Assembly: GCA_021782915.1 (NCBI GenBank)
Contig: JAJXUK010000010.1
Location: forward strand, 1-59,938
Length of the DNA: 59,938 bases
From: Actinomycetes bacterium
GTDB taxonomy: Bacteria > Actinomycetota > Acidimicrobiia > Acidimicrobiales > RAAP-2
Reading direction: 5' to 3'
The notes below the pieces were generated by a model, which was not told where the DNA came from, ran no database searches, and saw nothing but the letters and a program-made list of their open reading frames with translations. Every line of letters starts with the position of its first letter. Position 1 is the stretch's first letter. The position numbers were made by a program, and so were the translations under genes. This document shows, piece after piece, positions 2,264 to 40,703 of this stretch.

Positions 2264-2292
2264 TCCCGGCGCGGAGTGGCCGGCTCAGCACG

Positions 2293-2310: not shown

Positions 2311-2328
2311 TCGTCGAGAGGAGTCGTC

Positions 2329-3087: not shown

Positions 3088-3151
3088 GGAGCACGCGGGG
3101 CGCCGTCGCGGGCGTTCTAGTGTCGGGGGCGCTGGAGCTGAAGGAGACGAC

Positions 3152-15353: not shown

Positions 15354-15364
15354 GGGAGGCTCAG

Positions 15365-22989: not shown

Positions 22990-23547
22990 TCAGGTCGCGT
23001 CGAGGATCGTGACGCCGGCGGACCGCATCTCGTCAATCGACGTCGCGGTCGTGTCCGGCGCAACCCCCGCGCAGAAGGCGAGATTCAACGACGTTCGGAA
23101 TCCCGCTCCAATCGCGTCTAGCGCGGTGGCACGAACGCAGTAGTCGGTGGCGATGCCCACCACCTCTACGTCGGTGACTCCGCGCGCGCGCAGGAAGTCG
23201 GCCAGGGAGTCGCGGTCCTGATTGCTGGCCTCGAATCCGGAGTAGGCTGCGGCCTCGTGGCCCTTGTCGAACACGCCGTCCAGGCCGCGCAGGTCACCGA
23301 GCGCGGGGTGCAGCTGCGCTCCCCAGGACTCAGCACGGCAGTGCACTGGCCATTCGTCGAAGTGGTCGCCCGGATCGATGTGCCAGTCACGAGTGGCGAC
23401 GATCACGTCCGAGGCGAACGGACCCTCTCCCGCGCGGTTGAAGTCGGCCAGGCGCGCGGCGACGACCTCGCCACCGGCGACGTACAGGGACCCCTGAGGG
23501 TCAGCGAAGTCATTCTGGACATCGACGATGATGAGCGCCTTCGTCAC
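22990..23547 (-). CDS. pncA: Nicotinamidase (isochorismatase-superfamily)
   Basis: 185 residues. Catalytic triad: Asp9 (LIIVDVQNDF), the lysine in VFDKGHEAAAYSGFE and the cysteine in GIATDYCVRATA. Metal ligands are in TRDWH and the following histidines. The pattern DxxNDF...DWH...DKG...TDYCV is diagnostic for PncA-type enzymes, which hydrolyse nicotinamide to nicotinate and ammonia. It could serve NAD salvage. Its place in an operon with molybdenum-cofactor chaperones, opposite enamidase and 6-hydroxynicotinate reductase, argues that it feeds nicotinate into degradation. Pyrazinamidase activity would be expected as a side reaction. Confidence 0.9.
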   Translation of the reverse strand: MTKALIIVDVQNDFADPQGSLYVAGGEVVAARLADFNRAGEGPFASDVIVATRDWHIDPGDHFDEWPVHCRAESWGAQLHPALGDLRGLDGVFDKGHEAAAYSGFEASNQDRDSLADFLRARGVTDVEVVGIATDYCVRATALDAIGAGFRTSLNLAFCAGVAPDTTATSIDEMRSAGVTILDAT

Positions 23548-23592: not shown

Positions 23593-24471
23593 CTAGCGTG
23601 CGTTTGAGGAGTCGTCATCCTCGACTCGGCACTGGGTGAGGTCACCGTCCTCGTGCCCGGCGACACGATGGATGGGCCCCGATGAGTCGCGCAGCGAGGG
23701 CACGGGCGTCGCCGAGCGCGTGGCGATGATCTCGGCACAGATGGCGATCGCGGTCTCTTCGGGGCTGCGCGCGCCGATGTCGATTCCGATGGGCGCCATG
23801 AGGCGATCGATCTGGTCGGCGCCCACTCCCTCAGCCTCAAGTCGCGCCCGCCGCTTCTCATTCGTGCGTCGTGAGCCCATCGCCCCGATGTACCCAGCGT
23901 CGGTCCGGAGTACCTCGACCAGGGCCGGGATGTCGAACTTCTCATCGTGAGTCAGGACGCAGACCGCATCTGAGGGTCCCAGCCGCGGCGTCAGTCCCCG
24001 GAGGAAACGGTGTGGCCAGTCGACGATGACGTCATCGGCCTCTGGGAATCGCTCGGCCGTCGCGAAGGCGCCCCGCGCGTCGCAGACGCTCACGTGGTAG
24101 CCGAGAGTCTTGGCCACCCGCACGAGGGCTCGCGTGAAATCAACGGCGCCGAAGATGATCATGCGGGGCCGCCTCGTGAAGGCGTCGATGTAGATCGTCA
24201 GATCGTCCCGTTGGGCCTCGCCGTCAACTCCACAGTGCCAAAGGCCCCCGCGTGACTCGTTCAGGGCGTGAAGGAGTCGCGTCGCGGCCGCGGCGTTCAG
24301 CTCGGGCGAGCCGAGGTCGCCGATGGCGGAGCCATCGGCCTTGACCAGGATCTTTGATCCAACGGGGACGGCGTGGGCGGCTGCGTTGTCTCGCATGGCG
24401 ATGATCGTCGCGAAAGCGAACGCCTCGTCGCGTCGTAGGCAGTCGTAGGCGGCGGCCAGTACGCCCTGCAT
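23593..24471 (-). CDS. XdhC/CoxI-family molybdenum-hydroxylase maturation protein
   Basis: 292 residues. An N-terminal, degenerate CoxI-like part (about 1-75; ILVKADGSAIGDLGSPELN in place of the usual GSxPRxxGA...GGGCxE) precedes the XdhC_C Rossmann domain (RMIIFGAVDFTRALVRVAKTLGYHVSVCDAR, span about 101-131; YIGAMGSRRTNEKRR; PIGIDIGARSPEETAIAICAEI). XdhC proteins bind molybdopterin cofactor, help to sulfurate it and insert it into xanthine-dehydrogenase-family apoenzymes. The likely client is the Mo subunit at 29832-32555. Its start overlaps the stop of the small CoxI-domain gene before it. Confidence 0.9.
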   Translation of the reverse strand: MQGVLAAAYDCLRRDEAFAFATIIAMRDNAAAHAVPVGSKILVKADGSAIGDLGSPELNAAAATRLLHALNESRGGLWHCGVDGEAQRDDLTIYIDAFTRRPRMIIFGAVDFTRALVRVAKTLGYHVSVCDARGAFATAERFPEADDVIVDWPHRFLRGLTPRLGPSDAVCVLTHDEKFDIPALVEVLRTDAGYIGAMGSRRTNEKRRARLEAEGVGADQIDRLMAPIGIDIGARSPEETAIAICAEIIATRSATPVPSLRDSSGPIHRVAGHEDGDLTQCRVEDDDSSNAR

Positions 24472-24782
24472 CAGGAGACGAGTTCGAGGAAGATCTTGAT
24501 CGTCCCCCCGCAGGTCAGCCCGACGGCGAACGCCTCGTCATCCGAGTACCCGAACGTGCAGAGCCTGGCGGCACCGGTCTCGAGGACCTTCAGCGCCTCG
24601 CTCACCAGGGCCCCCTCGACGCAACCACCCGCAACGGATCCGCGCACTTCACCGGTCTCGCAGACGGCCATCGCTGCGCCGGGATCCCGGGGGCTCGATC
24701 CCTGGACATCGATGACGCGTGCGAGAGCGACGCGGTGGCCCTCGGTGAGCCACCGTTCGATCTCGTCCAGCAAATCGAGCAT
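24471..24782 (-). CDS. Small XdhC/CoxI N-terminal-domain protein
   Basis: 103 residues consisting only of the XdhC_CoxI domain. ALARVIDVQGSSPRDPGAAM and GSVAGGCVEGALVSEA are the conserved motifs, and the C-terminus has GLTCGGTIKIFLE. ATG 24782 is taken as start; the in-frame ATG 24791 is an alternative. It supplies the canonical CoxI motifs that are degenerate in the next gene, so the two products probably work as a heteromeric XdhC. The usual full-length XdhC carries both parts on one chain. Confidence 0.85.
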   Translation of the reverse strand: MLDLLDEIERWLTEGHRVALARVIDVQGSSPRDPGAAMAVCETGEVRGSVAGGCVEGALVSEALKVLETGAARLCTFGYSDDEAFAVGLTCGGTIKIFLELVS

Positions 24783-24894
24783 CGGCGGCATCCTACCAAC
24801 GGCTCCGGATTCCTCCACGCCGGGCAGTGGCACTGACGATGAGAGTGACACTCGTCGACACCCACTGCCGATACCCAGGCGCATCTCGGTGCGT

Positions 24895-25518
24895 CTAGGT
24901 CCTCGTGCCGCGGCCCGCGTCGTTGATCGCAGGATCGTGGTGCTCCCAGTGGGCGAAGTCGGACGGTGTATCGAGGTCAACGGATGAACCCGCACACGCG
25001 ACTTCAGTGACGAGATGGGGACTCGCGGCCATGAGCGCGCGCGCGCCAACGTCTCCCGTGGCGGGCAGCAGCGGCCACACGCTGCGCTCGATCCGGACTG
25101 GGGGCGTGCGCTGGGAACCCATCACCGCCACCGCGATCGGGGCCCGCGTCGCGGCGACGCTCGTCCACGCGCTGGCGGGCACGAAGGGCTGGTCGGCTAG
25201 ACCGATGACGACCACGTCGTGCCCGCGGCGATCCGCCTCGGCGATCCCGCATTGCAGCGATGTCGCCATGCCAGCCATCCAATCGGAGTTTTCCACGACC
25301 ACCTCAGGACCAAGGAGCCGATGGATGTCGCAACCTCCGGTGACCACAATCACCTCGTCAAGTCCGGCGGCGGCCACGGCCTCGAGTGCCCATGAGGCGA
25401 GTGGCCGACCACGAAATGGGGCGAGCAGCTTCGGCATCGCAGCATCGAATCGGCGCGAGGCGCCCGCCGCGAGGATCACGGCCGCCGTCACGAGGGGAGT
25501 CGGCGGGCCCGTCGACAC
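24895..25518 (-). CDS. Molybdenum cofactor nucleotidyltransferase (MocA/MobA-like)
   Basis: About 207 residues. The nucleotidyltransferase signature AAVILAAGASRRF is at the N-terminus with the downstream lysine in MPKLLAPFRGRPL; VVIGLADQPFVP is the metal-binding aspartate region. Such enzymes attach CMP (MocA) or GMP (MobA) to molybdopterin. CMP is expected for a xanthine-dehydrogenase-family client such as the one encoded here. The start is uncertain: GTG 25518 gives a family-length protein, and GTG 25491 starts directly at the domain. An ATG at 25626 would run through the divergent control region and has no ribosome site. Confidence 0.85.
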   Translation of the reverse strand: MSTGPPTPLVTAAVILAAGASRRFDAAMPKLLAPFRGRPLASWALEAVAAAGLDEVIVVTGGCDIHRLLGPEVVVENSDWMAGMATSLQCGIAEADRRGHDVVVIGLADQPFVPASAWTSVAATRAPIAVAVMGSQRTPPVRIERSVWPLLPATGDVGARALMAASPHLVTEVACAGSSVDLDTPSDFAHWEHHDPAINDAGRGTRT

Positions 25519-25627
25519 CGCCGCAGCGATGTTCGCGAACCGCCCCTTCGAATCGATCGTGTCACCGCCTAGAGCGTATCGACCGGGATGTGCATTGAGG
25601 CATGCTTCGTGCCTACTCCGCCCCATC

Positions 25628-25647: not shown

Positions 25648-25717
25648 TTACGTCTGTGTTAGAACGGCATTGCCGGTCAGCGACGTCGTGGCGCTGCGAC
25701 TGATGAAAGGACGGGGG

Positions 25718-26290
25718 ATGATCCGGATTCTGGCGACCCATGTGCAGGTGAGTGAACGTCGAGTGGAAATGGGTCGAGACCTGGCGCCGTACGTTCGTCG
25801 TGTCGTGGCCGCAGCGGTGATCGAGAATCCCTTCGCCGGACGCTACGTCGAGGATCTCAGTGAACTTGTCGACGACAGCGTCCCTCTCGGAGAGGAGCTG
25901 TCGCGACTCGCCGTTGCCACCCTGGGCAATCCCGTGCACTCCTATGGCAAGGGTGTCATCGTGGGCATGGCCGGCGAGCTCGAGCACGCCGCGGCCCTGT
26001 TGCACCCCAAGCTGGGAACGCCGTTGCGCGAGGCGTGCGGTGGGGGCAAGGCCATCATCCCCTCGACGAAGAAGCGCGGAGGTCCTGGTACCACATTGGA
26101 CATCCCGCTGCACTACAAGGATGCGGCGTTCGTTCGCTCTCACTTCGACGCAATCGAGTTGCGCATCGGGGAGTCGCCGGCTGACGACCAGATCGTCTTG
26201 GCGGTGGCGGTGACCGATAGCGGTCGGCCGCTTCCTCGTATCGGTGGTCTCACGGTTGACGATGCGGTGGGAGAGGACGGGCTGCGATGA
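25718..26290 (+). CDS. DUF1185 'amino acid synthesis' family protein
   Basis: 190 residues from ATG 25718, chosen for the AAAGGACGGGGG ribosome site. It resembles the DUF1185/AA_synth family: GNPVHSYGKGVIVG, GELEHAAALLHPKLGTPLRE, GGGKAIIPSTKKRG and TTLDIPLHYKDAAFVRSHFD are its recognisable blocks (quoted in part). The biochemical function of this family is not established to my knowledge. It is the first gene of the plus-strand operon and overlaps enamidase by 4 bases, so its product is likely needed with that enzyme. Examples would be a tautomerase, a second amidohydrolase or a metabolite-binding helper. No signal peptide or membrane segment. Confidence 0.75.
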   Translation: MIRILATHVQVSERRVEMGRDLAPYVRRVVAAAVIENPFAGRYVEDLSELVDDSVPLGEELSRLAVATLGNPVHSYGKGVIVGMAGELEHAAALLHPKLGTPLREACGGGKAIIPSTKKRGGPGTTLDIPLHYKDAAFVRSHFDAIELRIGESPADDQIVLAVAVTDSGRPLPRIGGLTVDDAVGEDGLR

Positions 26291-27474
26291 GTCAGCACTT
26301 GGCGATCATCAATGTGGGGAGCATGCTCTCTGGATCTTTGGATGCTCCGCGCATCGACGCGGACACCATTGTTGCTACCGACGGCGTGATCAGCGCCATC
26401 GGCACCGCGAAGGATGTCGCCGTGCCCGATGACGCGCTGGTCATCGACGCCGCGGGAGCCACCGTCGTGCCGGGCCTGCGCGACAACCACGTGCATCCGG
26501 TGTTCGGCGACTTCACTCCTCGCCAGAGCACCCTCGGATGGATCGAGTCCTGTCTGCACGGTGGCGTGACCGCAATGTACTCGGCTGGCGAGGCGCATCT
26601 GCCGGGACGTCCCTCGGACCCTGACGGGATGGTCGCGCTCGCGACGCTGGCGCACAAGAGCTACGCCAAAGTCCGCCCCGCGGGGGTCAAGCTCGAAGCG
26701 GGAGCCGTTCTCTTGGAGCCGGGTCTCACCGAGGAGCACTTTGACGCCATGGCGCGCGCGGGTTGCCGGCTCGTCGGAGAGATCGGCATCTCGGGCATGA
26801 CCGATCCACTCAAGGCGGCGGAGATGGCGGGTTGGGCCCAGGCGCGTGGGATGAAGGTCATGGTTCACACCGGGGGAGCGTCGATTCCCGGCTCGAGCGT
26901 CATTGGCGCGGACTTCGTCGTGGCCGTGCAGCCTGACGTCGCGGGCCACGTCAATGGAGGACCGACGAGCCTGCCCCTTCGTGACGTGCAGCGAATCCTC
27001 GAGGAGACGAACGCGCGCATCGAACTCGTGCACAACGGCAACATCACGACCCTCGGCGCCATTGTGCGACTGGCGGCGGAACGAGGAGAACTCTCACGCG
27101 TCGTCATCGGCACGGATGCTCCCGCCGGCAGCGGTGCGCAGCCGTTGGGCGTCTTGCGGGTCATGGCGTCGGCCGCGTCGCTCGGCGGCGTGGACGGTGC
27201 GACGGCACTGGCGTTCGCGACCGGGAACACGGCGCGTCTGCACGACGAAGACGGCACGTTGAGCGTGGGCCAAGCGGCGGACCTCGTCGTGGTGGACGCA
27301 CCGCTGGGTTCCCAGGCTGCCGACGCGATGGGCGCGCTCGAGATCGGCGACACGCTGGCCGTGGCCTTCGTCGTCATCGACGGACGCGTCGTCGTGTCCA
27401 AGAGCCGGAACACGCCGCCACCGGTGCGAGGAGTCCACCAAGTCGGAGCAGCTCCGTCGAGCGGTGCGCACTAG
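26287..27474 (+). CDS. ena: Enamidase (6-oxo-1,4,5,6-tetrahydronicotinate amidohydrolase)
   Basis: 395 residues, amidohydrolase superfamily. Metal ligands: HxH in LRDNHVHPVF (about residue 71), His in MVHTGGASIPGSS, a further histidine (LVHNGN or GHVNGGP), and Asp in GTDAPAGSGAQPLG. The blocks PGRPSDPDG, RPAGVKLEAGAVLLEPGLTE, VNGGPTSLPLRDVQRI and VVVSKSRNTPPP agree, as I recall them, with enamidase of Eubacterium barkeri over essentially the whole length. That enzyme hydrolyses tetrahydro-6-oxonicotinate to 2-formylglutarate and ammonia. The neighbouring 6-hydroxynicotinate reductase and molybdenum hydroxylase genes support this. A general dihydroorotase-like amidohydrolase is the fallback. 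Confidence 0.86.
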   Translation: MSQHLAIINVGSMLSGSLDAPRIDADTIVATDGVISAIGTAKDVAVPDDALVIDAAGATVVPGLRDNHVHPVFGDFTPRQSTLGWIESCLHGGVTAMYSAGEAHLPGRPSDPDGMVALATLAHKSYAKVRPAGVKLEAGAVLLEPGLTEEHFDAMARAGCRLVGEIGISGMTDPLKAAEMAGWAQARGMKVMVHTGGASIPGSSVIGADFVVAVQPDVAGHVNGGPTSLPLRDVQRILEETNARIELVHNGNITTLGAIVRLAAERGELSRVVIGTDAPAGSGAQPLGVLRVMASAASLGGVDGATALAFATGNTARLHDEDGTLSVGQAADLVVVDAPLGSQAADAMGALEIGDTLAVAFVVIDGRVVVSKSRNTPPPVRGVHQVGAAPSSGAH

Positions 27475-27490: not shown

Positions 27491-28981
27491 ATGAGAATCC
27501 TGCAGAACTACCTCGGCGGAGAGTGGCGTGACGTCAGCGGCGCTCAGTCCGTCGACGTGACGAATCCGGCCACGGGTGAGGTCCTGGCGATCCACCCGAT
27601 GTCGAGCGAAGTCGAGACCAGCGAGGTGATCTCGGCGGCTGCCGAGGCTTTCCGCTCCTGGCGACGTGTCCCGGTGCCCAAGCGTGCCGATCTGCTTCTG
27701 CGCTATCGCCAGTTGTTGATCGACGCGTCTGACGAGTTGTCAGCGATCATCACCGCCGAGAATGGCAAGACGCTGTCCGAGGCCCGGGGCGAATTGATGC
27801 GGGCAATTCAGTACGTGGACCACGCGGCCGCGGCCCCCGAGACGATGAAGGGGGCGGTGACCGCGAACATCGGCGACGGGGTGGACATCGAGTACATCCG
27901 CGAGCCCCTTGGAGTCTTCGCCTTCATCGCACCGTTCAACTTCCCGGCGATGATTCCGCTGTACTTCACGTGGGCTGTGGGAACCGGCAACACCGCCGTC
28001 ATCAAGCCGTCAGAGCTCTGCCCGTTGACCAGCATTCGCATGGTCGAGCTCGCCGAGCAGGCGGGGTTCCCGCCCGGGGTTGTGAACGTGGTTCTGGGAG
28101 CCCACGATGTGGTGGACACCCTCTGCACGCACCCCGATGTGGCGGGTGTGTCCTTCGTGGGCTCGTCGAAGGTGGCCGGCATCGTCTACGCGAAGGCGTC
28201 GTCGTCCCTGAAGCGTTGCCAGGCCCAGGGTGGCGCCAACAACCACTTGGTCGTAACCAACACGGTGTCGCTCGAGCGCACCATCGGCAACATGATCTCC
28301 TCCCTCTACGGCAACGCGTCACAGCGCTGCTTCGCGGGTTCGAACCTCCTCGTGTACCGCTCGGTCTATGAGCGGGTCGTGGAGACGATCATCGACAAGG
28401 CGCGAGGTCTCGTGCTCGGCGACGGGCGCGATCCCGGCGTGACGCTCGGGCCCGTGATCTCCGAGGCGTCGCGCGCTCATCTCGTCGACGCCGTGAACCG
28501 GGCCGAGTCTGAGGGCGGTCAGGTCTTGCTCGATGGACGTTCCGCGAGCGTTGCGGCGCGTCCCGAGGGCCACTGGTTTGGCCCGACGCTGGTGAGGGCT
28601 GACACGTCCAGTGATATCTGGAGGAACGAGTTCTTCGGTCCCGTTCGGTGCGTCTCGGTCGTCGAAGACGTCGACGAGGCGTTGAGTGTCATCAACGCGA
28701 GCGAGTTCGGACACACCGCCGTGATCTACACCGAGAATGGCGGCGAGGCCCAGTACTTCCGCAATGCGGCCGACGTGGGACAAGTCGGAATCAACGTGGG
28801 CACTCCTGCGCCCATCGCCTTCTATCCAGTCGGCGGCCGCCGATCGAGCTTTTACGGATCGCTGCGCGGACGCGCCGAGGACGCCGTGGACTTCTATACG
28901 GACAAGAAGGTCGTCGTGTCGACCTGGCACTTCGATGCCACGAGGGCGGCCAGCGTCGATCCAGCCTTCGAGCTCAAGTAG
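27491..28981 (+). CDS. CoA-acylating aldehyde dehydrogenase, methylmalonate-semialdehyde-dehydrogenase type
   Basis: 496 residues from ATG 27491, the usual MmsA length. Catalytic cysteine C280 is in NASQRCFAG. The general-base glutamate of ordinary hydrolytic ALDHs (ELGGK) is replaced: the segment reads QAQGGANNH with Ala near 245. That is the MmsA/IolA pattern (GAKNH), in which the acyl-enzyme is released to CoA after beta-decarboxylation. NAD-binding elements FIAPFNFPAMIP and GVSFVGSSKVAG are present. It lies between enamidase and the hydroxylase. Its expected substrate, 2-formylglutarate, is a malonate-semialdehyde homologue, so the predicted product is glutaryl-CoA. This is a proposal; methylmalonate semialdehyde remains the default assignment. 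Confidence 0.85.
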   Translation: MRILQNYLGGEWRDVSGAQSVDVTNPATGEVLAIHPMSSEVETSEVISAAAEAFRSWRRVPVPKRADLLLRYRQLLIDASDELSAIITAENGKTLSEARGELMRAIQYVDHAAAAPETMKGAVTANIGDGVDIEYIREPLGVFAFIAPFNFPAMIPLYFTWAVGTGNTAVIKPSELCPLTSIRMVELAEQAGFPPGVVNVVLGAHDVVDTLCTHPDVAGVSFVGSSKVAGIVYAKASSSLKRCQAQGGANNHLVVTNTVSLERTIGNMISSLYGNASQRCFAGSNLLVYRSVYERVVETIIDKARGLVLGDGRDPGVTLGPVISEASRAHLVDAVNRAESEGGQVLLDGRSASVAARPEGHWFGPTLVRADTSSDIWRNEFFGPVRCVSVVEDVDEALSVINASEFGHTAVIYTENGGEAQYFRNAADVGQVGINVGTPAPIAFYPVGGRRSSFYGSLRGRAEDAVDFYTDKKVVVSTWHFDATRAASVDPAFELK

Positions 28982-28984: not shown

Positions 28985-29839
28985 ATGGCCGGCGCGTTTG
29001 CCTACGAGCGACCACGGGCTCTGGAGCGAGCGCTGGAGCTGGTGAGCCAGCCCGACGCCGCGATCGTCTGTGGCGGAACCGACTTCTATCCCGAGCGGCT
29101 GTACAAGCCTCGCCACGAGTCCGTCGTGGACGTCTCGGCCGTGGAGGAGCTGCGCGGGATCGAGTGGAGTGCGGGTGCCTTGCGCATCGGTGCGGCGGCG
29201 ACGTGGAGCGAGGTTCGCGACGCGGCGCTACCCCCCGCGTTCGACGGGCTGCGTGGCGCGGCCAAGGAAGTGGGTGCGGCACAGATTCAGAACACCGGCA
29301 CGGTCGCGGGGAACATCTGCACCGCGTCGCCAGCCGGCGACGGGATACCGCCGCTGCTTACCCTGGACGCGCAGGTCGAGCTGCGCTCGGTGCGTGGCGC
29401 GCGGACCGTGAGCCTGCCTCAGTTCCTCGTCGGCTATCGCGCGACGGATCGGCGTGAGGACGAGCTCGTCACGGCCGTCATCATCCCGGGGCCACCGGCG
29501 AACTCGTGTGGCTCGTTCGTGAAGTTCGGACAGCGGTCGAGCCTCGTCATCTCGGTGGTCATGGTCGCGGCGTTGCTGGAGATCCAGGGAGGGCGCATCT
29601 CGACCGTGCGACTCGCGGTGGGTGCGTGCTCGCCCGTGGCGGTCCGACTGCCGGCGGTCGAAGAGGCGCTGGTGGGAATGGAGCTCGACGCGCTGGGTCT
29701 TCTCGACGCGGTGCGCGGCCTGCAGATGCGAGAGCTGGCCCCGATCGATGATGTGAGAGCGACGGGTGCCTATCGCCGCGACGTCGTGCCCGAGTTGATC
29801 GTCGATGCCGTGATGGCGTGTGGAAGTGATCATGAGTGA
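28985..29839 (+). CDS. Molybdenum hydroxylase FAD-binding subunit (nicotinate dehydrogenase medium subunit)
   Basis: 284 residues, CO-dehydrogenase flavoprotein / XDH medium-subunit family. The FAD pyrophosphate-binding loops are [11 protein letters not shown] (about 32-43) and the second motif [24 protein letters not shown] (about 101-124, key residues TVAGNI and SPAGD). A CO_deh_flav_C domain follows ([22 protein letters not shown], span about 207-228). It takes electrons from the [2Fe-2S] clusters of the next gene product and passes them to an acceptor. It starts 3 bases after the ALDH stop and overlaps the Mo-subunit gene by 8 bases. Confidence 0.9.
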
Positions 29840-32555
29840 GCTGATCCACACCCGAGTCAATGGGGTCGCCACTGAGATCCATTCCTCTGGGGCCACTCCT
29901 CTCAGTACGGTGCTGCGCGACGAGTTGGGACTCACGGGCACCAAGGTGGGCTGCGGCTCTGGCGACTGCGGGGCGTGCACCGTGTTGGTCGAGGGCACAC
30001 CGGTCTGCTCGTGTCTGACGCCGGTGGGTCAGGTGGCCGAGCGATCCGTGCTCACGGTGGAGGGGCTGGCTGGTGACGAACTCGGCGCGCGATTGCAGGA
30101 GGCCTTCCTCTCCCACGGTGCCGCTCAGTGTGGCTACTGCACTCCCGGCATGCTGATGGCGGCTCGCGCTCTGGTTGAGAAGACCACGCGGCCCACGCGT
30201 CGCGAAATCGAAGAGGCCCTCGGCGGCGTCCTGTGCCGTTGCACGGGCTACCGTCCCATCATCGAAGCCCTCGTCGACTTCGAGGGCGCTTCACGCACGG
30301 TGGAGGCAGCGGCGGGCAAGTCGGTTGGCGTGTCGATCAGCCGCCTCGACGGACCCGAGAGGGTGTCCGGGCTCGCTGTCTACGGTGCCGACGCGCTGCC
30401 GGCGGACGCGCTCGTGATGAAGATCATCCGGAGCCCGTTCCCTCACGCCGCGTTCACTCTGGGTGACCTTGAGCGGTACCGGGCCGAGCACCCCGAGGTG
30501 CGCCTGGTGCTCACGGCCAAGGACGTGACGGGAGACAACCGCTTCGGCGTGATCCCGGGATTCGTAGACCAACCGATCTACGCCGTGGATGAGACGCGCT
30601 TTCACGGCGAGGCGGTGGCCGCCGTCGTGTTCGACGCCGGCGCCGACGCACTGATCGATGACTTCCCCGTGGAGTGGCGTGAACTCGCGGCCATCGAGTC
30701 GATCGACGCGGCCCTGGATCCGAGTGCCCCCTCCATCCAGGCGGATCGGGTCGGCAACATCCTCGTTGAAGGCTACGTCGAGCGTGGTGACGTCGATCGG
30801 GCCTTGTCGGAGGCGGCGGTCGTGGCCAGCGGAGAGTTCACCACGCCATTCGTCGAGCACGCCTACATCGAGCCCGAGGCGGGGTGGGCTGAAATGGACG
30901 GCGACGTCGTCGTGATCTACGCGTGCACGCAGGCGGCCTACATGGATCGAACCTCGACCGCCGCGGTCCTCGGCGTCCCGGAAGAGCAGGTTCGCATCGT
31001 GCCGACCGAGGTGGGGGGCGGCTTCGGCGGGAAGCTGGACGTGGCCGTGCAGCCGCACCTGGCCCTAGCCGCTCGACGCTTGGACCGTCCGGTGTCCTTG
31101 GTCTATGACCGGCGCGAGTCCATGATGTCCACGACCAAGCGCCACCCCGCGCTCATGAGGGTGCGCGTGGGAGCACAGAGCGACGGGCGCATCACCGCGA
31201 TGGACTTCGACGGAAGCTTCAACACCGGCGCCTACGCCTCGTGGGGGCCCACCGTGGCCAATCGTGTGCCGGTTCACGCGTCGGGTCCCTACTCGACGCC
31301 GCACTACCGGGCTCGAACCCGCGCCGTGCTGACCAACGCGCAGCCATCGGGCGCGTTCCGGGGTTTCGGCGTCCCTCAAGCCGCGATCGCCCAAGAGGTG
31401 CTCTACGACGACCTCGCGTACGCGCTCGACATGGATCGACTGGAGCTGCGGCGCGCGAACGTCCTCGTTGATGGTGCAGCGACCGTGACGGGCCAGCGCC
31501 TCGTGGGCGGCGTGGGCATCGGCGACTGCCTCGACGCGTTGCGCGAGAACTGGCGCGTCGCGATGGGGCGCGTCAGCGAGGAGCACAAGGACACGTCACG
31601 CCGATACCGCTCTGGCGTGGGTCTGGCGTGCATCTGGTACGGCTGCGGCAACACGTCGCTGTCGAATCCCTCGACGTTCAAGGCGGGTGTCCGGCGTGAC
31701 GGCACCGTCGTCCTCCATCAGGGCGCCATCGACATCGGTCAGGGCTCCGCGACGGTCATCTCGCAGATGTTCGCCGACGCCTTGGGCGTTCCCGTCGGGG
31801 ACATCGAGCGCGTCTCCGCGGACACGGCGGTGACGCCTGACGCCGGCAAGACGTCCGCGTCACGCCAGACGTACGTCTCGGGCATGGCCGCGATGAGGAC
31901 CGGGCGCTCCCTGCGAGAGACGCTCACCGCGGCACTCGGAGTGAACGCCGACGCGCCGCTGCGCCTCGACGGCTCAGTGCTGATCGCGTCGGTGCCCGAC
32001 GGCGAGGTGAAGCTCGACCTGTCGACTGTCCCCGAGTACAACGGCTACGTCTTTGCCGCCGTTGAGTCCTTCGACCCGCCCACGACTCCCCTGGACGACA
32101 TGGGGCAAGGTGACCCCTACGCCGTCTACGGATTCGGAGCTCAGATGGTGGAACTGCGCGTCGACGCTCTCACGGGTCGCGTCCACCTCGACAAGATCAC
32201 GGCGGCCTACGACGTCGGGCGGGCGATCAATCCTCGCCTCGTCGTTGGACAGATCGAGGGCGGAATCGCCCAGGGCATCGGCCTGGGACTCTTGGAGGCC
32301 TACGTTCCGCAGCGCACGAACAACCTGCACGACTACCTCATCCCCACGCTGGGCGACGTGCCGGAGATCGAGAGTTTCCTCGTCGAGTCGAATGACCCGG
32401 GCGGCCCCTATGGTGCCAAGGGAGTCGGGGAGCACACCATCATCGGCACGGCGCCGGCCATTCTCAACGCGATTCGACACGCGGTGGGCGCTCGTGTCAC
32501 TGCGGTGCCGGCGACGCCGGAGCGAGTGCTGAGGGCGATGGAGGAGGCAGGATGA
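29832..32555 (+). CDS. Molybdenum hydroxylase, fused [2Fe-2S] and Mo-binding subunits (putative nicotinate dehydrogenase)
   Basis: 907 residues from ATG 29832. Residues 1-160 form the small-subunit part. The plant-ferredoxin-type cluster uses C41, C46, C49 and C61; the second cluster is [11 protein letters not shown] with LCRCTGYRP. Residues about 165-907 form the Mo/MCD-binding part with [33 protein letters not shown] and the catalytic glutamate in [12 protein letters not shown]. Xanthine-dehydrogenase-family enzymes hydroxylate N-heterocycles with water as oxygen source. The neighbours (enamidase, 6-hydroxynicotinate reductase, nicotinamidase) point to nicotinate 6-hydroxylation; purine oxidation is the alternative. 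Fusion of small and large subunits with a separate FAD subunit differs from the E. barkeri enzyme. Confidence 0.88.
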
Positions 32556-34000
32556 GCGACGACGTGGACGTGGTGGATGAGTCGGACGTCGGAGTGAAGG
32601 TTCGCTGTGAAGCATGTCCGATCCGCTGCTTCATCAAGCCGGGTGCTACCGGGAGCTGTGATCGATACGGGAACGTCGATGGCGTTCTGACCCGGATGGA
32701 CCCCGTGACCGTGCTCGAGATCACCAAGGAGAACGGTGGGCGCCTGGTCCCGTTCGCGGTGAGTGACGACTGGGACGGCGAGTTGGTCGACGACGCCGTC
32801 TTCGTCACGGGTGCTGGAGCGGGCACGACGTATCCCGACTACAAGCCGGCGCCCTTCATCGTGTCCTCCAACTACGCGGGCGTGGATACCGTGACGACCG
32901 TTACCGAGGGCATCTTCTCCTACTGCTCGGCACGGGTGAAGATCGACACGGATCGCTACGTCGGCCCCGAGCAGGCCACCGTACGCGCCGGCGGTGAGGC
33001 CGTGGGCATGGTGACCACGGGTGAGTACGGTTCGCAGATGCTCTCGATCGGCGGGGTGAACCACCTCACCGGTGGCACGAAGCACGAGGGTCTGGCGACG
33101 ATGCGCACGATTCTGGCGCTTTGCCGTGCCGAGGAGGTGGAGCTCGAGGTCGAAGGCGGCTCCCAACTTCGTCTCCAGGCCGGGAAGCCTCCGATCATCG
33201 ACGGTCACGTCGAGGAGTTGATGCGCGTGGGTTGCGGGTCGGCCACCGTGGGGATGTTCGCCAAGACCTGGAGCAAACTCGTCGACGAGGTCGTCGTGGT
33301 TGACGATCACATCACGGGGGTGCTGACGGAGCACCAGGCGGGTGCGGTCCTGGGAATGCCCCCGAGCGGCATCAAGGTCATTGGTCGACGTTCCACACCG
33401 GGCCGGTACTTCAACATCGCCGAACCCGGGGCTGGCTGGGGAGGGACCACGTTGACGGATCCGCTGTCGATCCTGGGTCCCTTCAATGCGGCCAAGGGCG
33501 CGCGCCCGGGACTGCGGCTCCTGATGACCAGCACGACGGGTGAGAGCGTCGCGTACTTCATCCTGGATGATGACTTGACGCCCCAGCCCGCGGAGATCCC
33601 CGACGAGGTCGTCGCGTCAGTGGCGCGGATTCGGGCGAACTGCGAGCCGGCGCTCACCACCGTCCTCTTCGTGGCGGGTGCTGGAGGATCGCTGCGCGCG
33701 GGGGTCTCGGCCGAACCGGTGCGTCTCACGCGCTCCGTGCGCTCACGTCTGACGCGCGTGACCTGTGGAGGAGCTGCGGTGTACGTGTGGCCCGGTGGGG
33801 GCATCACCTTCATGGTGGATGTCCTGAGCGTGCCGAAGGACTCCTTCGGCTTCGTGCCGACTCCGGCGATCGTCGCGCCGATCGAGTTCACGATGTCGCG
33901 CGAGGATTACCTCGAGCTCGGCGGCCACGCGGAGGCCATCCGCAGCATCGACGATGCCCTGCGAGATGTTCCCGTGCGACGGCTGAGCGCGCGCGGGTAG
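32552..34000 (+). CDS. 6-hydroxynicotinate reductase (ferredoxin-dependent)
   Basis: 482 residues; ATG overlaps the preceding stop. The N-terminus has a C-x2-C-x3-C-x9-C motif (C19, C22, C26, C36; RCEACPIRC...GSCDRYGN) expected to bind an iron-sulfur cluster. The rest is a conserved body with [54 protein letters not shown] and [19 protein letters not shown] (each a short quote). These blocks are those of proteins annotated as 6-hydroxynicotinate reductase, an FeS-flavin enzyme that reduces 6-hydroxynicotinate to 1,4,5,6-tetrahydro-6-oxonicotinate with reduced ferredoxin. It sits between the hydroxylase that should make its substrate and an ApbE-like gene that may flavinylate it. Confidence 0.85.
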
Positions 34001-34009: not shown

Positions 34010-34933
34010 GTGTCGGGCGGTCCTGTCGCCGCCCTGTCGAGTGACGGCCTGACCCTCCACCTGCAGCACGGACCGACGGACCTGATCATCACGGCGGATG
34101 GATCGTCGACTGCTCGAACCGCCTGCTTTGCGCGGGCACGGGCGGCCCTCGACGGTGTCATCGAAGGCCTGGTCGGCGAGCTCGCGCAGTTGCGCCAGCC
34201 GGCCGCGAGCCGCCCGCGGGTTCGTGGCGCGGTCGCACGGCTCATGGTCGAGGCGACCGCGAACTTCGAGGGCTCCTTCGTCACACCGATGGCGTCGGTG
34301 GCCGGGGCGATCGCGGATCACGTGCTGGCCGCCTCCTGGATCCAGGGCTTGGAGCGTCTGACGGTGAACAATGGAGGTGACATCGCCTTCGAGTTGGGCG
34401 AAGGGGCCACGACCACGATCGGGGTGGTGACGTCCTTGCTGGAGCGGCGGGTGATCGGCTCGATCGTGATCCACGCGGCGTCTCCCGTGCGGGGAGTCGC
34501 CACGAGCGGGTGGCGCGGGCGCAGCTTCTCACTGGGCATCGCCGATGCCGTGACCGTCTTGGCCCGCAACGCCGCGCTCGCTGACGCCGCCGCGAGCGTG
34601 ATCGCGAGCGCGGTCGACCTACCGGGACACCCGGGCATCACCCGAGTCCCGGCACGAGAACTCGACGAGTCCAGCGACCTGGGAGATCGACTCGTGACCC
34701 GTGACGTTGGCCCGCTCGGTTCCCAGGAACGCCGTCAGGCCCTTGAGCCGGGCATCGCGCTGGCAGAGGACCTCTTACATCGTGGAGTGATCGCCGGCGC
34801 TCATCTGGTGATCGGCGACACCCACGTCAGCTTGCGACACGAGTCTGATTCCGATCGGGCCCCACTGATCGAACTCGGCACTGATGCGACGCGCGCCATC
34901 CAGGGTGCTTCGCCTTCTGACGCCGTGGACTGA
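34010..34933 (+). CDS. UPF0280 family protein, ApbE-like (possible flavin transferase)
   Basis: 307 residues from GTG 34010, 9 bases after the reductase gene. The central region (about 85-210) shows the ApbE-like pattern: GSFVTPMASVAGAIADHVL, LTVNNGGDIAFELG, then VRGVATSGWRGRSFSLGIAD and a terminal helix of alanines. NNGGDIA and VATSG match ApbE's metal- and flavin-binding segments. UPF0280 proteins have no proven function that I know of. The C-terminal 70 residues (DVGPLGSQERRQALEPG onwards) form a second small domain. I infer covalent flavin attachment to, or maturation of, the adjacent 6-hydroxynicotinate reductase. Confidence 0.8.
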   Translation: MSGGPVAALSSDGLTLHLQHGPTDLIITADGSSTARTACFARARAALDGVIEGLVGELAQLRQPAASRPRVRGAVARLMVEATANFEGSFVTPMASVAGAIADHVLAASWIQGLERLTVNNGGDIAFELGEGATTTIGVVTSLLERRVIGSIVIHAASPVRGVATSGWRGRSFSLGIADAVTVLARNAALADAAASVIASAVDLPGHPGITRVPARELDESSDLGDRLVTRDVGPLGSQERRQALEPGIALAEDLLHRGVIAGAHLVIGDTHVSLRHESDSDRAPLIELGTDATRAIQGASPSDAVD

Positions 34934-35778: not shown

Positions 35779-36915
35779 ATGAAACCTGGTTCGCGCCACC
35801 TGGCCATTCCGGCGGCCGTCTCTGCGATCGTGCTGAGTCTGACGACGTTCTCGGCGAGTACCGGGGCGGTGACGAACAGAAGCGGCCACGCTTCCCACGC
35901 CGTCTCGCATTCGGCAACCAGCAAGATCAAGACTGGCTGGATCTACGACGGCTCGATCGCGGACAAGGGCTACGACGAGGAGTGGTACAACGGGCAGGTC
36001 TACCTGCAGAAGACCCTCGGTATCACGTCGACGATGAGCCAGAACACCCCGTACACGAGCCAGTGGACCTCCACGGCCCTGGGCATGATGGGACAGGGCG
36101 CGAAGATGGTCGTCGACCCCGGTGAAGGCGGAACGCTCTTCTACGCCGCCTGCAAGAAGTACCCCAACGTGGCCTGCGTGGAGGCGAACGGCACGCTGCC
36201 GTTCCCCTCGAACTCGACTGCCGTGTATTCGGAGAACTGGCAGGCCTCCTACCTCGAGGGCATGGCCGCGGGGATGATGACCAAGACCGGGATCATCGGA
36301 TTCCTGGAGGCCTTCGCGAACACGCCCGCTCCGGTGATGGAGACGTTGAACGCGCTCGTCCTGGGCTGTCAGGCGACGCACCCGGGTTGCCGGGCGATTG
36401 CCACCGTGGTGAACTCCTGGTACAACCCGCCGGTCGAGACGGAGGACCTGAACGCCCTCGTCAACGCTCACGCGGACATCCTGGCGACAACGCAGAATGA
36501 CCCGTCGGCGGTGACCGTGGCCGAGAAGCGAGGCGTCAAGGCGATCGCGATGTGGGGCAACCCAGTGAGCTCCGGGCGCACGGCGTTCATCACCGCCACT
36601 GACGTGAACTACGGGCCGACGCTGAAGGAGATCGCCCAGACGGTCATCAAGGGCACCTACAAGGGCGGCAAGATCGACCTGTTCGGATTCGGTCACGGGC
36701 TGTCGCTCGCGCCGTGGGGCCCCACGGTTCCTGCGGCGGTGCGCGCCAAGGTGACGGCCGCGGAGAATCAGATGAAGAAGGGCCACAACTTCTTCTGCGG
36801 CCCGATGTACGACAACACTGGAGCACTGAAGCTGAAGAAGGGCCAGTGCCTGAGCACGCTGCAGGCCTACGACAAGTGGAACTGGTACGTGAAGGGCGTC
36901 TCCGTCAGCAAGTGA
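35779..36915 (+). CDS. BMP-family ABC transporter substrate-binding protein
   Basis: 378 residues. Signal peptide of about 32 residues (AIPAAVSAIVLSLTTFSASTGA) without a lipobox cysteine, then the BMP/PnrA fold: KTGWIYDGSIADKGYDEEWYNG (span about 51-72), VVDPGEGG, NWQASYLEGMAAGMMTKTG and GHGLSLAPWGP. BMP proteins classically bind nucleosides, but members bind other ring compounds. The downstream ATPase and two permeases complete the importer. It is encoded next to the N-heterocycle catabolic genes behind the palindrome. Nicotinate, nicotinamide or a nicotinamide nucleoside is therefore a plausible ligand (inference). Confidence 0.9.
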   Translation: MKPGSRHLAIPAAVSAIVLSLTTFSASTGAVTNRSGHASHAVSHSATSKIKTGWIYDGSIADKGYDEEWYNGQVYLQKTLGITSTMSQNTPYTSQWTSTALGMMGQGAKMVVDPGEGGTLFYAACKKYPNVACVEANGTLPFPSNSTAVYSENWQASYLEGMAAGMMTKTGIIGFLEAFANTPAPVMETLNALVLGCQATHPGCRAIATVVNSWYNPPVETEDLNALVNAHADILATTQNDPSAVTVAEKRGVKAIAMWGNPVSSGRTAFITATDVNYGPTLKEIAQTVIKGTYKGGKIDLFGFGHGLSLAPWGPTVPAAVRAKVTAAENQMKKGHNFFCGPMYDNTGALKLKKGQCLSTLQAYDKWNWYVKGVSVSK

Positions 36916-36937
36916 TCGCGAGCTGGATTTCGGGGCA

Positions 36938-38563
36938 ATGAGCACCGGAGAAATCGGTGAAGTGAACAAGGAGTCCGGGCGGCCCGTTGGGGCCGCCCGG
37001 AACTCCGCAGATCTCAAGTTGCGCGTCCGGGGCGTGGTCAAGTCCTTCGGGTCACTACGCGCACTGCGCGGCGTGGACTTGGACTGCGAGGTCGGACAGA
37101 TCCACGCGGTGCTGGGTGAGAACGGCGCCGGCAAGTCCACCCTGATGAGTGTGGTTACGGGACTCCTGGCACCTGACGAGGGTGAGATGTTCCTCGATGG
37201 CCACGAGTATCGACCACAGAACTCCCAGGTGGCGATGCGTCACGGGGTCGGCATGGTCCACCAGGACTTCCAGCTGATCGAGCGCCTCAGCGTCGGTGAG
37301 AATCTCTTCCTGGGCTGGGACGGCGCCCCGCGCATCGCCACCGTGCAGCGAGTGCACGAGGCCGCAGCCGCGGCGATCGCGCGATTCGGATTCAGCCTCG
37401 ATCCGGCGACCAAGGTCCAGGACCTGTCGGTTGGCGAGCAGCAGCGCGTCGCGGTGGTGCGCGCGTTGGTGCGCGGGGCGAAGGTGTTGATCCTCGATGA
37501 GCCCACGGCCGCGCTCACGCCCCAGGAGGTCGGCGAGCTCTTCGTCGTCATGAGGTCCCTGGCCTCACAGGGCACGACCATCATCTTCATCACCCACAAG
37601 CTGCGCGAGGTGATGGACATCGCCGACCACGTCACCGTCCTGCGACTCGGCGAGCGCGTCGCGAGCTTTCCCATCGGTGAGTGCGACGAGGCGCGTCTGG
37701 CTCGCGAGATGCTGGGACGCGACGTCGTTCCCCTTGAGCGCGACTCGGCGGAGGTACCGGAGGGTTCGCAGGTGGTGATGCGCGTCGAGTCGTTACACGC
37801 CCGCGACGAGCGCGGCCTGCTCGCCGTCAAGGACGTCTCGCTCCAGCTCGTCTCTCACGAGATCGTCGGGGTGGCCGCGATCGCCGGCAACGGTCAGCGC
37901 GAGCTCTCCGAAGCCCTCGCCGGGGTGCGTCAGGTTGAGTCCGGACGCATCGAGATCGACGGGAGCGACATCACGAGCCGTTCCGCGAATGCCTTCACGG
38001 CCTCGGGCATCGGCTACATCCCCGAGGATCGCCTGGGGGCGGGCATGATGCTGCGCGAGTCGATCGCGCGCAACGCCATCATGAAGGCGCTGTCGGTGAG
38101 GAGCGAACGCGCCCGATTGACCCGGGGGTTCTTACTGCGTCCGCGCGAGATCGAGAACTACGCCAACGAGCTCTTGGCCGAGGGTCAGGTCTCCACCAGG
38201 GACGCGGGCGTCCCGGTGGGCCACCTCTCGGGTGGGAACATCCAGAGGCTCCTCATCGCGCGCGAGGTGCGCATCGCGAGTCGCCTGCTCATCGCCGTAC
38301 ACCCGACTCTCGGACTGGACGTCGGAGCGACTGAGAGGACGTGGCAGACGCTCTTGGACGCCCGGGGCCGGGGCATCGCGATCCTGCTGATCTCTGAGGA
38401 TCTCGACGAAGTCCTGACGCTCTCGGATCGGATCTTGGTGATGCATCACGGAGAGATCGTCGGGGAGTTCCAGAATCGCACGACGCCACCGACGCGTGAG
38501 CAGTTGGGACTCCTGATGGGCGGCGCCACGCCGCGGGGCGACTCAGTGGGGGTGAGCGCGTGA
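36938..38563 (+). CDS. BMP-type ABC importer ATPase (tandem cassette)
   Basis: 541 residues with two ABC domains. The first is intact: Walker A GENGAGKST, signature LSVGEQQRVAVV, Walker B KVLILDEPTAAL. The second has a degenerate Walker A (GVAAIAGNGQRELSEAL) and signature LSGGNIQRLLIA, the normal state for RbsA/YufO-type tandem ATPases. It energises uptake with the two permeases that follow. A 22-base gap separates it from the binding-protein gene. Its stop overlaps the next start. Confidence 0.94.
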   Translation: MSTGEIGEVNKESGRPVGAARNSADLKLRVRGVVKSFGSLRALRGVDLDCEVGQIHAVLGENGAGKSTLMSVVTGLLAPDEGEMFLDGHEYRPQNSQVAMRHGVGMVHQDFQLIERLSVGENLFLGWDGAPRIATVQRVHEAAAAAIARFGFSLDPATKVQDLSVGEQQRVAVVRALVRGAKVLILDEPTAALTPQEVGELFVVMRSLASQGTTIIFITHKLREVMDIADHVTVLRLGERVASFPIGECDEARLAREMLGRDVVPLERDSAEVPEGSQVVMRVESLHARDERGLLAVKDVSLQLVSHEIVGVAAIAGNGQRELSEALAGVRQVESGRIEIDGSDITSRSANAFTASGIGYIPEDRLGAGMMLRESIARNAIMKALSVRSERARLTRGFLLRPREIENYANELLAEGQVSTRDAGVPVGHLSGGNIQRLLIAREVRIASRLLIAVHPTLGLDVGATERTWQTLLDARGRGIAILLISEDLDEVLTLSDRILVMHHGEIVGEFQNRTTPPTREQLGLLMGGATPRGDSVGVSA

Positions 38564-39771
38564 GCACCGGCGCAGCCTCCACCGCGGCCCGCCAGTCTCG
38601 CAAGAGTTGGACCGTGGTCCGAGGCGCCCCGTCGCCGAAGCGCTCGTGGGCGTATCGCATCGTGGCGATCTTCGCGGTGATCGCGGGCTCGGCCCTCTAC
38701 CTGGTACTGACCATCCATCAGCCGGACATCCTCGGCGTCGTCCTGCGCGAGTCCTTCGCGACGCCAGCAAGCCTTGACGAATGGGTCGTGCTGGCCACAC
38801 CCTTCTTCCTGACCGCGCTCGCGGTGCTGATCCCGCTGCGCGTGGGCCTGTGGAACATCGGAGGCGAGGGCCAATTCTTCGCGGGGGCGTGGCTCGCCAC
38901 CGGCTTCGCCTTCTGGCTCACCCACCTCACGGGCGGCCTCCTCATTCCGGGGATGCTCGTGGCGGGCGCCCTGGGCGGCGCGCTGTGGGCAGCCATTCCG
39001 ACGTTGGCGCGCGTCTATCTCAACGTGAACGAGATCATCTCGACACTGATGCTCAACGTGGTGATGGTGTTCTGGGTGGCGTACTGGCTCGTGGGCTCGT
39101 GGCAGTACGGGGGCTCCACGGGTGGGACCCTGCAGAGTCGCATCATTCCCACCCAGGCCCAGCTGCCCCTGCTGCACGTGGCCGGTGGGCTGGACTCGGG
39201 CGTGATCATCGCCCTGGTGCTCACGGCGCTGGTGGGCCTGTACCTGCACTATTCGACCTTCGGCTATCAGTCCCTGCTGGTGGGCTCCGGGCGAGCGGTC
39301 GCGCTCTACACCGGGGTGCGCATTCGACGCGTCCAGATGATCTCAATGCTCGCCGCGGGCGCACTGGCGGGCGTCGCCGGCGTCCTTCAGTTGACGGGCA
39401 ACTCGTACCAGCTCACGCCGGGGCTCTCCAACAACACGGGCTACCTGGGCATCGCCGTGGCCATCCTGGCGGGCAACTCCATCTGGGGCTTGGTAGTCAT
39501 GTCGGGGCTGCTGAGCACGATCATGCTCGTGGGCCAGAACGCCCAGATGTACGGCGTGTCCTCGGACGCCCCCTTCATCGTGATCGGTGTCCTCCTGCTT
39601 CTGAACGCCCTCGGCGACGCGCTGAGCCAGTACCGCGTGATGCGCCTCGATCGCCGGGACGTCTCCAGCGAGGCCGAGGGCGACGATCTCGTCGAAGCCG
39701 AGGGCCACTCCACGGCGGGCTCGGGCGCGCCGGGGCTCGAGATGGTGCGTGACGCGCTGGAGGCTGGCTGA
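38560..39771 (+). CDS. BMP-type ABC importer permease 1
   Basis: 403 residues, BPD_transp_2 family. A charged N-terminal tail of about 30 residues is followed by some ten helices, and there is an acidic C-terminal tail after about 360. Conserved pieces are PLRVGLWNIGGEGQFFAGA, LNVNEIISTLMLNVVMVFW and QMISMLAAGALAGVAGV. GTG 38560 overlaps the ATPase stop (GTGA). It pairs with the next permease as a heterodimeric channel, as in nucleoside importers of the NupP/YufP type. Confidence 0.93.
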   Translation: MSTGAASTAARQSRKSWTVVRGAPSPKRSWAYRIVAIFAVIAGSALYLVLTIHQPDILGVVLRESFATPASLDEWVVLATPFFLTALAVLIPLRVGLWNIGGEGQFFAGAWLATGFAFWLTHLTGGLLIPGMLVAGALGGALWAAIPTLARVYLNVNEIISTLMLNVVMVFWVAYWLVGSWQYGGSTGGTLQSRIIPTQAQLPLLHVAGGLDSGVIIALVLTALVGLYLHYSTFGYQSLLVGSGRAVALYTGVRIRRVQMISMLAAGALAGVAGVLQLTGNSYQLTPGLSNNTGYLGIAVAILAGNSIWGLVVMSGLLSTIMLVGQNAQMYGVSSDAPFIVIGVLLLLNALGDALSQYRVMRLDRRDVSSEAEGDDLVEAEGHSTAGSGAPGLEMVRDALEAG

Positions 39772-40703
39772 TGCACACCTTCGAGCTCTCGTTCGCCGCG
39801 GCCCTGCTGGCGGCCACCCCGTTGCTTCTGGCGGCCACCGGGGAGCTCTTCGGCGAGATCCTGGGGATGATGAACGTCGGCATCGAGGGCTTGATGCTCA
39901 TGGGGGCGGTGACCGGTGTCATCGTCACGCTACACACGAACAGCCCGGAACTCGGCCTGCTCTGCGGCGCCCTGGCCGGGGCCGCCTACCTGCTCGTCGT
40001 CTACGGCATCCCCGTGGTCGTCTTCATGACCGAGCAGGTCCTGCCTGGCTTCGCGGTGTGGTTCATCGGTCTGGGTCTGTCGCAGCTGCTCGGCAACAAC
40101 TACGAGAACACCAGCGTCTCGAGCTCGTCGACCGTCGTGGGCCTGCCGGGGATCGACCGCATCCCGGTGATCCGCGAGATGATCGGGCACTTCCCCTGGC
40201 CCGTGTACGTCGCCTTCGTCCTGCCCTTCGGCGTGGCGTGGCTTCTGGGCCACACCCGGCACGGGCGCAACATGCGCGCCATCGGCGAGAATCCCGCCAC
40301 CGCGGCGACCGGTGCCGGCATCGCGGTGATGAGATGGCGACTCTTCTACGTGGGTGTGAACGGCTTCTTCGGCGGCTTCGCGGGTGCCTTCCTGGCGGTG
40401 GTGGCCGTTGGGGCGTGGGGACCGGACGTCACTGCGGGGCGCGGGTTCATCGCGCTCGCCGTGGTGATCTTCTCGGCGTGGCGGGCGCGCTGGCTCATCG
40501 TGGGAGCGGCCTTCTTCGGTGGACTCTTGATCTTGGTGGAGCTGGGAGGAGCGCTGGCCTGGCCGATCCCGCCCGACTTCCTCTCCATGTTCCCGTACCT
40601 GGGAGCCGTCATCGTTCTCGTCATCTGGTCGATTCGGGGGCGCCGAGGAGAGCTGAGCGCCGCACCGACATCCCTCGGCGTGCGGGTGATGTCGCGCCGC
40701 TAG
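39771..40703 (+). CDS. BMP-type ABC importer permease 2
   Basis: 310 residues, about eight to nine helices, YufQ/NupQ-like. LLAATGELFGEILGMMNVGIEG at residues about 17-38 and MRAIGENPATAATGAGIAV are the family landmarks. The ATG overlaps the permease 1 stop. It ends the transporter operon, and the following 106 bases lead into convergent apbE. GC-rich inverted repeats there (for example GCGAGC/GCTCGC, 40797-40819) may limit read-through. Confidence 0.93.
   Translation: MHTFELSFAAALLAATPLLLAATGELFGEILGMMNVGIEGLMLMGAVTGVIVTLHTNSPELGLLCGALAGAAYLLVVYGIPVVVFMTEQVLPGFAVWFIGLGLSQLLGNNYENTSVSSSSTVVGLPGIDRIPVIREMIGHFPWPVYVAFVLPFGVAWLLGHTRHGRNMRAIGENPATAATGAGIAVMRWRLFYVGVNGFFGGFAGAFLAVVAVGAWGPDVTAGRGFIALAVVIFSAWRARWLIVGAAFFGGLLILVELGGALAWPIPPDFLSMFPYLGAVIVLVIWSIRGRRGELSAAPTSLGVRVMSRR

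Follow-up and report, generated by a model that had tools for sequence, protein, structure and literature searches.

In E. barkeri, the nicotinate pathway proceeds through enamidase and then through a reduction, a dehydration, a B12 mutase and an isomerase, and outside this branch we know of no genes for the step following enamidase. In Azorhizobium, work by Kitts in 1992 reportedly found that the carboxyl carbon is lost and that glutaryl-CoA is reached by CoA transfer. We know of no biochemistry on an enzyme converting 2-formylglutarate into glutaryl-CoA in a single step, and none is described among the titles and abstract openings listed in our literature search. One report (PMC3511419) has Azorhizobium degrade tetrahydro-oxonicotinate via glutarate, and describes a cluster with a 6-hydroxynicotinate reductase of the kind discussed here in a strain degrading 6-hydroxynicotinate.

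Here we analysed a window of 59,938 nucleotides (the whole stretch of DNA under study) from the genome of an Actinomycetes bacterium of the Acidimicrobiales, with a nicotinate gene cluster near its middle (Table 1). As in E. barkeri, a molybdenum (Mo) hydroxylase, a 6-hydroxynicotinate reductase and an enamidase would lead from nicotinate to 2-formylglutarate; however, the cluster lacks the mutase module of E. barkeri and contains an aldehyde dehydrogenase (ALDH) resembling the methylmalonate/malonate semialdehyde dehydrogenases (MMSDH) of the MmsA/IolA/ALDH6A1 group. The Azorhizobium caulinodans pathway has the same first three steps according to PMC3511419, but there leads to free glutarate.

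The nicotinate gene cluster and its aldehyde dehydrogenase

Table 1. Features of the nicotinate gene cluster (window positions)
Feature	Position	Strand	Evidence or remark
PncA-type, nicotinamidase-like hydrolase; possible source of nicotinate	22990..23547	-	NF008623 104.5 bits, cut-off 174
XdhC-like and MocA-like genes, presumed Mo-cofactor maturation of the hydroxylase	23593..25626	-	NF045664, TIGR03310
AA_synth family protein (PF06684)	25706..26290	+	Pfam 221 bits; frequent enamidase partner
Enamidase	26287..27474	+	Matches 2VUN (E. barkeri enamidase) at E 8e-114, residues 6-382
MmsA-like ALDH, putatively CoA-acylating	27491..28981	+	TIGR01722 above cut-off, enamidase-linked clade, pocket changes
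FAD subunit, Mo hydroxylase (presumed nicotinate dehydrogenase)	28985..29839	+	PF00941, PF03450
Fused FeS and molybdopterin subunit, same hydroxylase	29820..32555	+	PF00111, PF01799, PF01315, PF02738, PF20256
6-Hydroxynicotinate reductase	32552..34000	+	61-66% to alphaproteobacterial homologues; 59% to a gene so annotated (L112)
UPF0280 family protein, conserved partner	34010..34933	+	NF003322 322.9 bits, cut-off 290
ABC importer of the BMP/PnrA type with binding protein, ATPase and two permeases; candidate for uptake	35779..40703	+	PF02608 for binding protein

The cluster has the composition of a reductive (tetrahydro-oxonicotinate) cluster, with an enamidase and, by similarity, a 6-hydroxynicotinate reductase and a Mo hydroxylase. 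The E. barkeri enamidase was the sole PDB match of the window enamidase below 1e-10, and the window protein is expected to yield 2-formylglutarate from tetrahydro-6-oxonicotinate. Neither the Pfam and NCBIfam models nor a PADLOC scan matched the reductase; its alphaproteobacterial homologues (Table 1) come from loci of Afipia, Bradyrhizobium and further members of the group. Several flanking genes fell below model cut-offs: NF008623 was the sole NCBIfam match of the nicotinamidase-like gene at 1e-10, NF045664 and TIGR03310 were the top matches of 23593-24468 and 24895-25623, and the importer ATPase had a B6 transporter model (NF047930) as its top match, the permeases being recognised by eye in translation. 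The AA_synth start is approximate, as the open frame starts at 24905. With a nicotinamidase-like gene in the same module as the genes for enamidase, the reductase and the Mo hydroxylase, the substrate would most likely be nicotinamide or nicotinate. Nicotinamidase-like genes, likewise below cut-off, also occur in the L027, L058 and L143 clusters, the latter two with nicotinate phosphoribosyltransferase genes.

In most clusters seen, AA_synth stands beside enamidase, and those of alphaproteobacteria often have two copies of it in tandem; the UPF0280 protein is a similarly frequent partner of the reductase. Beside the L143 cluster, whose ALDH belongs to the same clade as that of the window (clade N, below), a methylenetetrahydrofolate-reductase-like gene and a gene with no assigned function (1661-3660) might, as a guess, hint at the use of N-methylated pyridines such as trigonelline.

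The ALDH gene runs from an ATG at 27491 to a stop codon whose last base is 28981 and encodes 496 aa. It is preceded by a good ribosome-binding site, AGGAGGA, 11 bases 5' of the ATG, and a longer form starting at GTG 27464 is mechanically possible. Only 16 bases separate it from the enamidase stop and 3 bases from the gene for the hydroxylase FAD subunit, in agreement with the sequence-only reading, which had placed it directly after an enamidase gene.

Its active site is also of the MmsA/IolA kind, as had been claimed. The protein contains a catalytic Cys (C280, in QRC 278-280), the conserved Asn of the family (N150) and GGANNH at 247-252, matching the family's GGAxNH; an ELGGK-like motif was sought in its sequence and not found. 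The column of the general-base Glu holds Ala245 in the window enzyme and Glu in none of 55 aligned rows. The first N of its ANNH is unusual, with Lys there in 8/10 clade N rows. R104 and R279 align with the two Arg that bind the carboxylate in B. subtilis MMSDH. The enzyme shares 42% identity with B. subtilis IolA (PDB 1T90), and passes the NCBIfam MMSDH model TIGR01722 narrowly (458.8 bits, cut-off 448.5). The genome also encodes a canonical MmsA elsewhere (C33:52477; 631.9 bits with TIGR01722), which is 39% identical to the window ALDH; the latter therefore need not serve valine or inositol.

Contamination of the assembly was considered as a source of the cluster and rejected: in 16/20 other genomes of the genus there is DNA 64-84% identical to its right flank (41-60 kb), so that the contig probably belongs to the genus. 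Enamidase was found in 0/13 other same-genus genomes, and the module may therefore be an acquired island. GC content is 0.657-0.678 in 4-kb steps between 20 and 40 kb and mostly 0.69-0.72 in the flanks, with low values (about 0.67) also at 10-16 kb and 54-58 kb.

Three enamidase-linked clades

Phylogenetic placement against MmsA, which the sequence-only reading had proposed as a check, put the window ALDH outside the 33 MmsA/IolA enzymes (a separate group, support 100/99) of a 55-row maximum-likelihood tree, and into a clade of its own with ten rows (clade N, 100/100), every one of them from an enamidase locus. Seven of these rows are of the same kind as the window enzyme (the window itself, G034, G125, G241 and the actinobacterial MAGs L027-L029), and the others are an Actinomycetes MAG (L034), a Thermodesulfobacteriota MAG (L055) and a MAG labelled only as a proteobacterium (L069); the clade thus joins Actinomycetota and Thermodesulfobacteriota. 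Clade A comprises ten ALDHs of other enamidase loci (100/99), and clade X comprises two ALDHs, from G247 and G038 (100/100). The branching order of the four groups was weakly supported (88/66). One stretch of Archaeon HR01 (L070) carries an ALDH that branches deeply within clade A, along with enamidase and AA_synth.

We then considered how strictly these ALDHs accompany enamidase. Among 296 genomes of the window's class, enamidase was found in 18 (E 1e-40), and the four class genomes with a clade N ALDH (at least 60% identity) were all among them (hypergeometric 1e-5, relatedness ignored). The six best by E-value of the 180 genomes matched at 1e-90, four with clade N and two with clade X, all had enamidase (6/6; hypergeometric about 2e-8, relatedness ignored and two of the six sharing one genus). 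Clades N and X were absent from 12/18 enamidase genomes of the class, ten of these 12 forming one family (f45); clade A would fall below the 1e-90 threshold of this search. The enamidase surroundings of five of the 12 (L145, L147 and, from three of the ten f45 genomes, L148, L149 and L151) contained no clade N, A or X ALDH. The same was true of the enamidase contig of G247 (L152), whose X gene, itself adjoined by AA_synth, lies on a different contig. Enamidases 63-69% identical to that of the window also occur with no clade N ALDH nearby (G172, G180, L145, L147, L030, L031).

In the class of L055 (23 genomes), a clade N or A ALDH was present in 11/13 genomes with enamidase vs 2/10 without (Fisher p 0.003, relatedness ignored), and in the two ALDH-only and two enamidase-only genomes a contig ends inside or beside the cluster. 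Overall, every clade N gene came from an enamidase-bearing genome or stretch, except two of the L055 class at contig ends. A search of 396 genomes of the phylum at E 1e-118 retrieved no further clade N enzyme; the 11 other ALDHs that it retrieved (10 genomes, 42-45% identity) had no enamidase or AA_synth in their 1.5-kb flanks.

Two ALDH lineages were found to occupy one and the same operon slot. A set of syntenic clusters is made up of an XRE regulator, a TRAP transporter, the ALDH, FeS, FAD and Mo subunits, enamidase, reductase, UPF0280 and AA_synth. Between dctM and the FeS gene, L055 and L069 have a clade N enzyme and L054, L075, L078, L240 and L037 a clade A enzyme, and in L084 the slot is empty. 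The ALDHs of L055 (N) and L054 (A) are only 37% identical, while the genes around the slot in L055 and L069 are 64-90% identical to their L078 counterparts. In L035, a clade A ALDH directly follows AA_synth, in the place taken by an Hgd-like gene in L036, L042 and L043.

Substrate pocket and proposed reaction

The enamidase-linked clades differ from MmsA/IolA at the same presumed pocket positions. The Trp that follows the catalytic-Asn loop in 33/33 MmsA/IolA rows is lost through a one-residue deletion in clade N and is Ser in A and Glu in X; the residue preceding the C-terminal GG, Phe in 33/33 MmsA/IolA rows, is Val, Leu and Leu in N, A and X, respectively; and position 461 (window numbering) is Arg in all N, A and X rows and in 0/33 MmsA/IolA rows. 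Clade N also has Gln at 431, where MmsA has Met or Asn. By alignment, the pocket Trp and Phe are presumably Trp177 and Phe465 of ALDH2; in ALDH2, both residues line the substrate tunnel. The AlphaFold model of the window enzyme (mean pLDDT 71.8) is poor at the active site, with values below 50 at the catalytic Cys and residues 437-496, so that the pocket argument rests on the alignment and the ALDH2 numbering.

In an enlarged comparison, Trp, Phe and no Arg were found in 58/58 MmsA-like enzymes from outside enamidase loci (the 33 tree rows plus 25 further enzymes, 9 + 11 + 5; 12 of the 58 come from plasmid records, none of them among the 25 plasmid records with enamidase). Conversely, the Trp and Phe were changed and the Arg gained in 23/23 distinct enamidase-linked enzymes (22 aligned plus L222, with L223 left out as a duplicate of L075), several of which are close kin, so that the number of independent cases is much smaller and, counted by clade, no higher than three. 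A motif print found the same pattern in seven additional clade N genes. The two family Arg (the R104 and R279 columns) were retained in all 22 aligned linked enzymes. The pocket changes in three clades fit a bigger substrate with a second carboxylate, for example 2-formylglutarate, and the same residues would fit glutarate semialdehyde, too.

We consider the window ALDH to be probably a CoA-acylating, decarboxylating 2-formylglutarate dehydrogenase, whose substrate, decarboxylation, CoA use and product we infer from these comparisons. The proposed step, 2-formylglutarate + CoA + NAD+ -> glutaryl-CoA + CO2 + NADH, is well supported, though unproven. By analogy with MMSDH, Cys280 would attack the aldehyde of 2-formylglutarate while R104 and R279 hold the carboxylate beta to it, hydride transfer to NAD+ would give a thioacyl enzyme, and the beta-carboxylate would depart as CO2. 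Because there is no Glu for water activation, CoA rather than water would resolve the glutaryl-enzyme. The propionate side chain would fit into the space left by the missing pocket Trp and Phe, and its distal carboxylate may be bound by Arg461.

The core of the one-step proposal made by the sequence-only reading is thus favoured, on comparative grounds, by the separate clade, the shared slot, the pocket and the lack of a mutase (below); its downstream route in this genome and any novelty beyond the one-enzyme route were not borne out. Counted against the one-step reading are the lack of a glutaryl-CoA dehydrogenase outlet (below), the 12/18 enamidase genomes with neither N nor X, the similar enamidases (63-69%) that have no such ALDH nearby, the empty slot of L084 and 27/48 reductase stretches with neither ALDH nor mutase module.

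Competing routes and the fate of glutaryl-CoA

The nearest rival to the one-step reading, which we consider unlikely, is that 2-formylglutarate is decarboxylated first, spontaneously or by another enzyme, perhaps AA_synth, and that the ALDH takes glutarate semialdehyde to glutaryl-CoA or glutarate. Beta-oxo acids such as 2-formylglutarate readily lose CO2, and the AA_synth and UPF0280 genes are frequent partners with no assigned role. However, both Arg that bind the beta-carboxylate in MMSDH are kept in all 22 aligned linked enzymes, and the missing water-activating Glu argues against free glutarate. The route of Azorhizobium through glutarate, reported in PMC3511419, would also favour prior decarboxylation, but the Azorhizobium-type alphaproteobacterial stretches that we examined contained no clade N, A or X ALDH. 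With a route through glutarate already reported, only the one-enzyme route and its use in several lineages would be new. In a Sulfitobacter nicotinate plasmid (L108, 13557-18690), AMP-binding, 3-hydroxyacyl-CoA dehydrogenase, enoyl-CoA hydratase and acyl-CoA dehydrogenase genes directly follow enamidase, a gene set that suggests a CoA-ligase route in this group.

It is very unlikely that the enzyme is an ordinary methylmalonate/malonate semialdehyde dehydrogenase standing beside enamidase by chance: it does pass TIGR01722, but narrowly, and the linkage with enamidase is kept in two phyla, the pocket residues are unlike those of all 58 enzymes from outside enamidase loci, and a valine or inositol MmsA is disfavoured by the canonical copy elsewhere in the genome as well as by the position of the window ALDH outside the MmsA/IolA group. 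Even less probable is that 2-formylglutarate is reduced as in E. barkeri and the ALDH serves another pathway. The window does contain a 3-hydroxyisobutyrate-dehydrogenase-like gene (15350-16288), but it lies 11 kb from the ALDH, and its product is distant from the 2-hydroxymethylglutarate dehydrogenase 3CKY, which was only tenth of its 22 PDB matches at 1e-20. This branch is further disfavoured by the search for 2-methyleneglutarate mutase, which in the window genome (97% complete) matched B12-domain fragments only (best E 9.6e-14).

When 27 genomes (those of L032 and L070 not among them) were searched for the L042 mutase, precisely the five with an E. barkeri-type module proved to have a full-length relative (63-100% identity). 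The other 22, the window's included, carry a clade N, A or X ALDH; a full-length 2-methyleneglutarate-mutase-like protein was found in 0/22, with short matches in the B12-binding part alone (best E 6e-17). Gene content was also compared across 97 stretches, several of them truncated: among 48 with the 6-hydroxynicotinate reductase, 16 had a clade N or A ALDH (6 N and 10 A, two being contig-end fragments), five the mutase module, none both, and 27, alphaproteobacterial ones included, neither; the mutual exclusion (0 observed, about 1.7 expected) is not significant by itself.

If glutaryl-CoA is the product, its further use in the window organism is not obvious. The claim that it feeds standard glutaryl-CoA degradation is unsupported in this genome (G000), where a glutaryl-CoA dehydrogenase probe verified against solved structures gave no match at 1e-80; when compared with PDB entries, the best protein (34% identity) came closest to general acyl-CoA dehydrogenases. 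With the G241 enzyme as query, glutaryl-CoA dehydrogenase was found in 105/296 class genomes and in 0/19 of the window's family, which leaves the proposed product with no obvious outlet here. The claim is plausible for some relatives. The enzyme occurs at 51-52% in G241, G125, G034 and G038, and thus in all three other clade N genomes of the class sample (G241, G125 and G034); the L041 genome has it at 49%. The G241 copy shares a contig with the ALDH, from which it is about 35 kb distant. In the genomes of L027, L028, L029 and L034, no glutaryl-CoA dehydrogenase was found at the 49-52% level (best 35% or no match). Across the class it was present in 16/18 enamidase genomes vs 89/278 others, a contrast that relatedness may inflate; in anaerobes, the probe does not separate a glutaryl-CoA dehydrogenase of the 3MPI type from other acyl-CoA dehydrogenases. 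In the window organism, glutaryl-CoA may be taken up by a CoA transferase or a thioesterase, or the module may serve mainly for nitrogen.

The one-step reading, if true, would tie the step following enamidase to a gene and to a mechanism, and would explain how vitamin B3 is broken down by some anaerobes and actinobacteria with no B12-dependent rearrangement. We regard it as an evenly balanced question whether this amounts to a third, widespread reductive nicotinate branch, in which changes at shared pocket positions created the one-step function, or refitted it, in three separate MmsA-like lineages (N, A and X). Such a branch would span Actinomycetota, Thermodesulfobacteriota, Bacillota and an archaeon. 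The three-position signature could tell these enzymes, several of which fall under TIGR01722, from the MmsA of valine and inositol degradation. If the reading holds, the range of the MMSDH family would grow to include a larger, two-carboxylate aldehyde, and a one-enzyme path would lead to glutaryl-CoA, a useful C5 building block.
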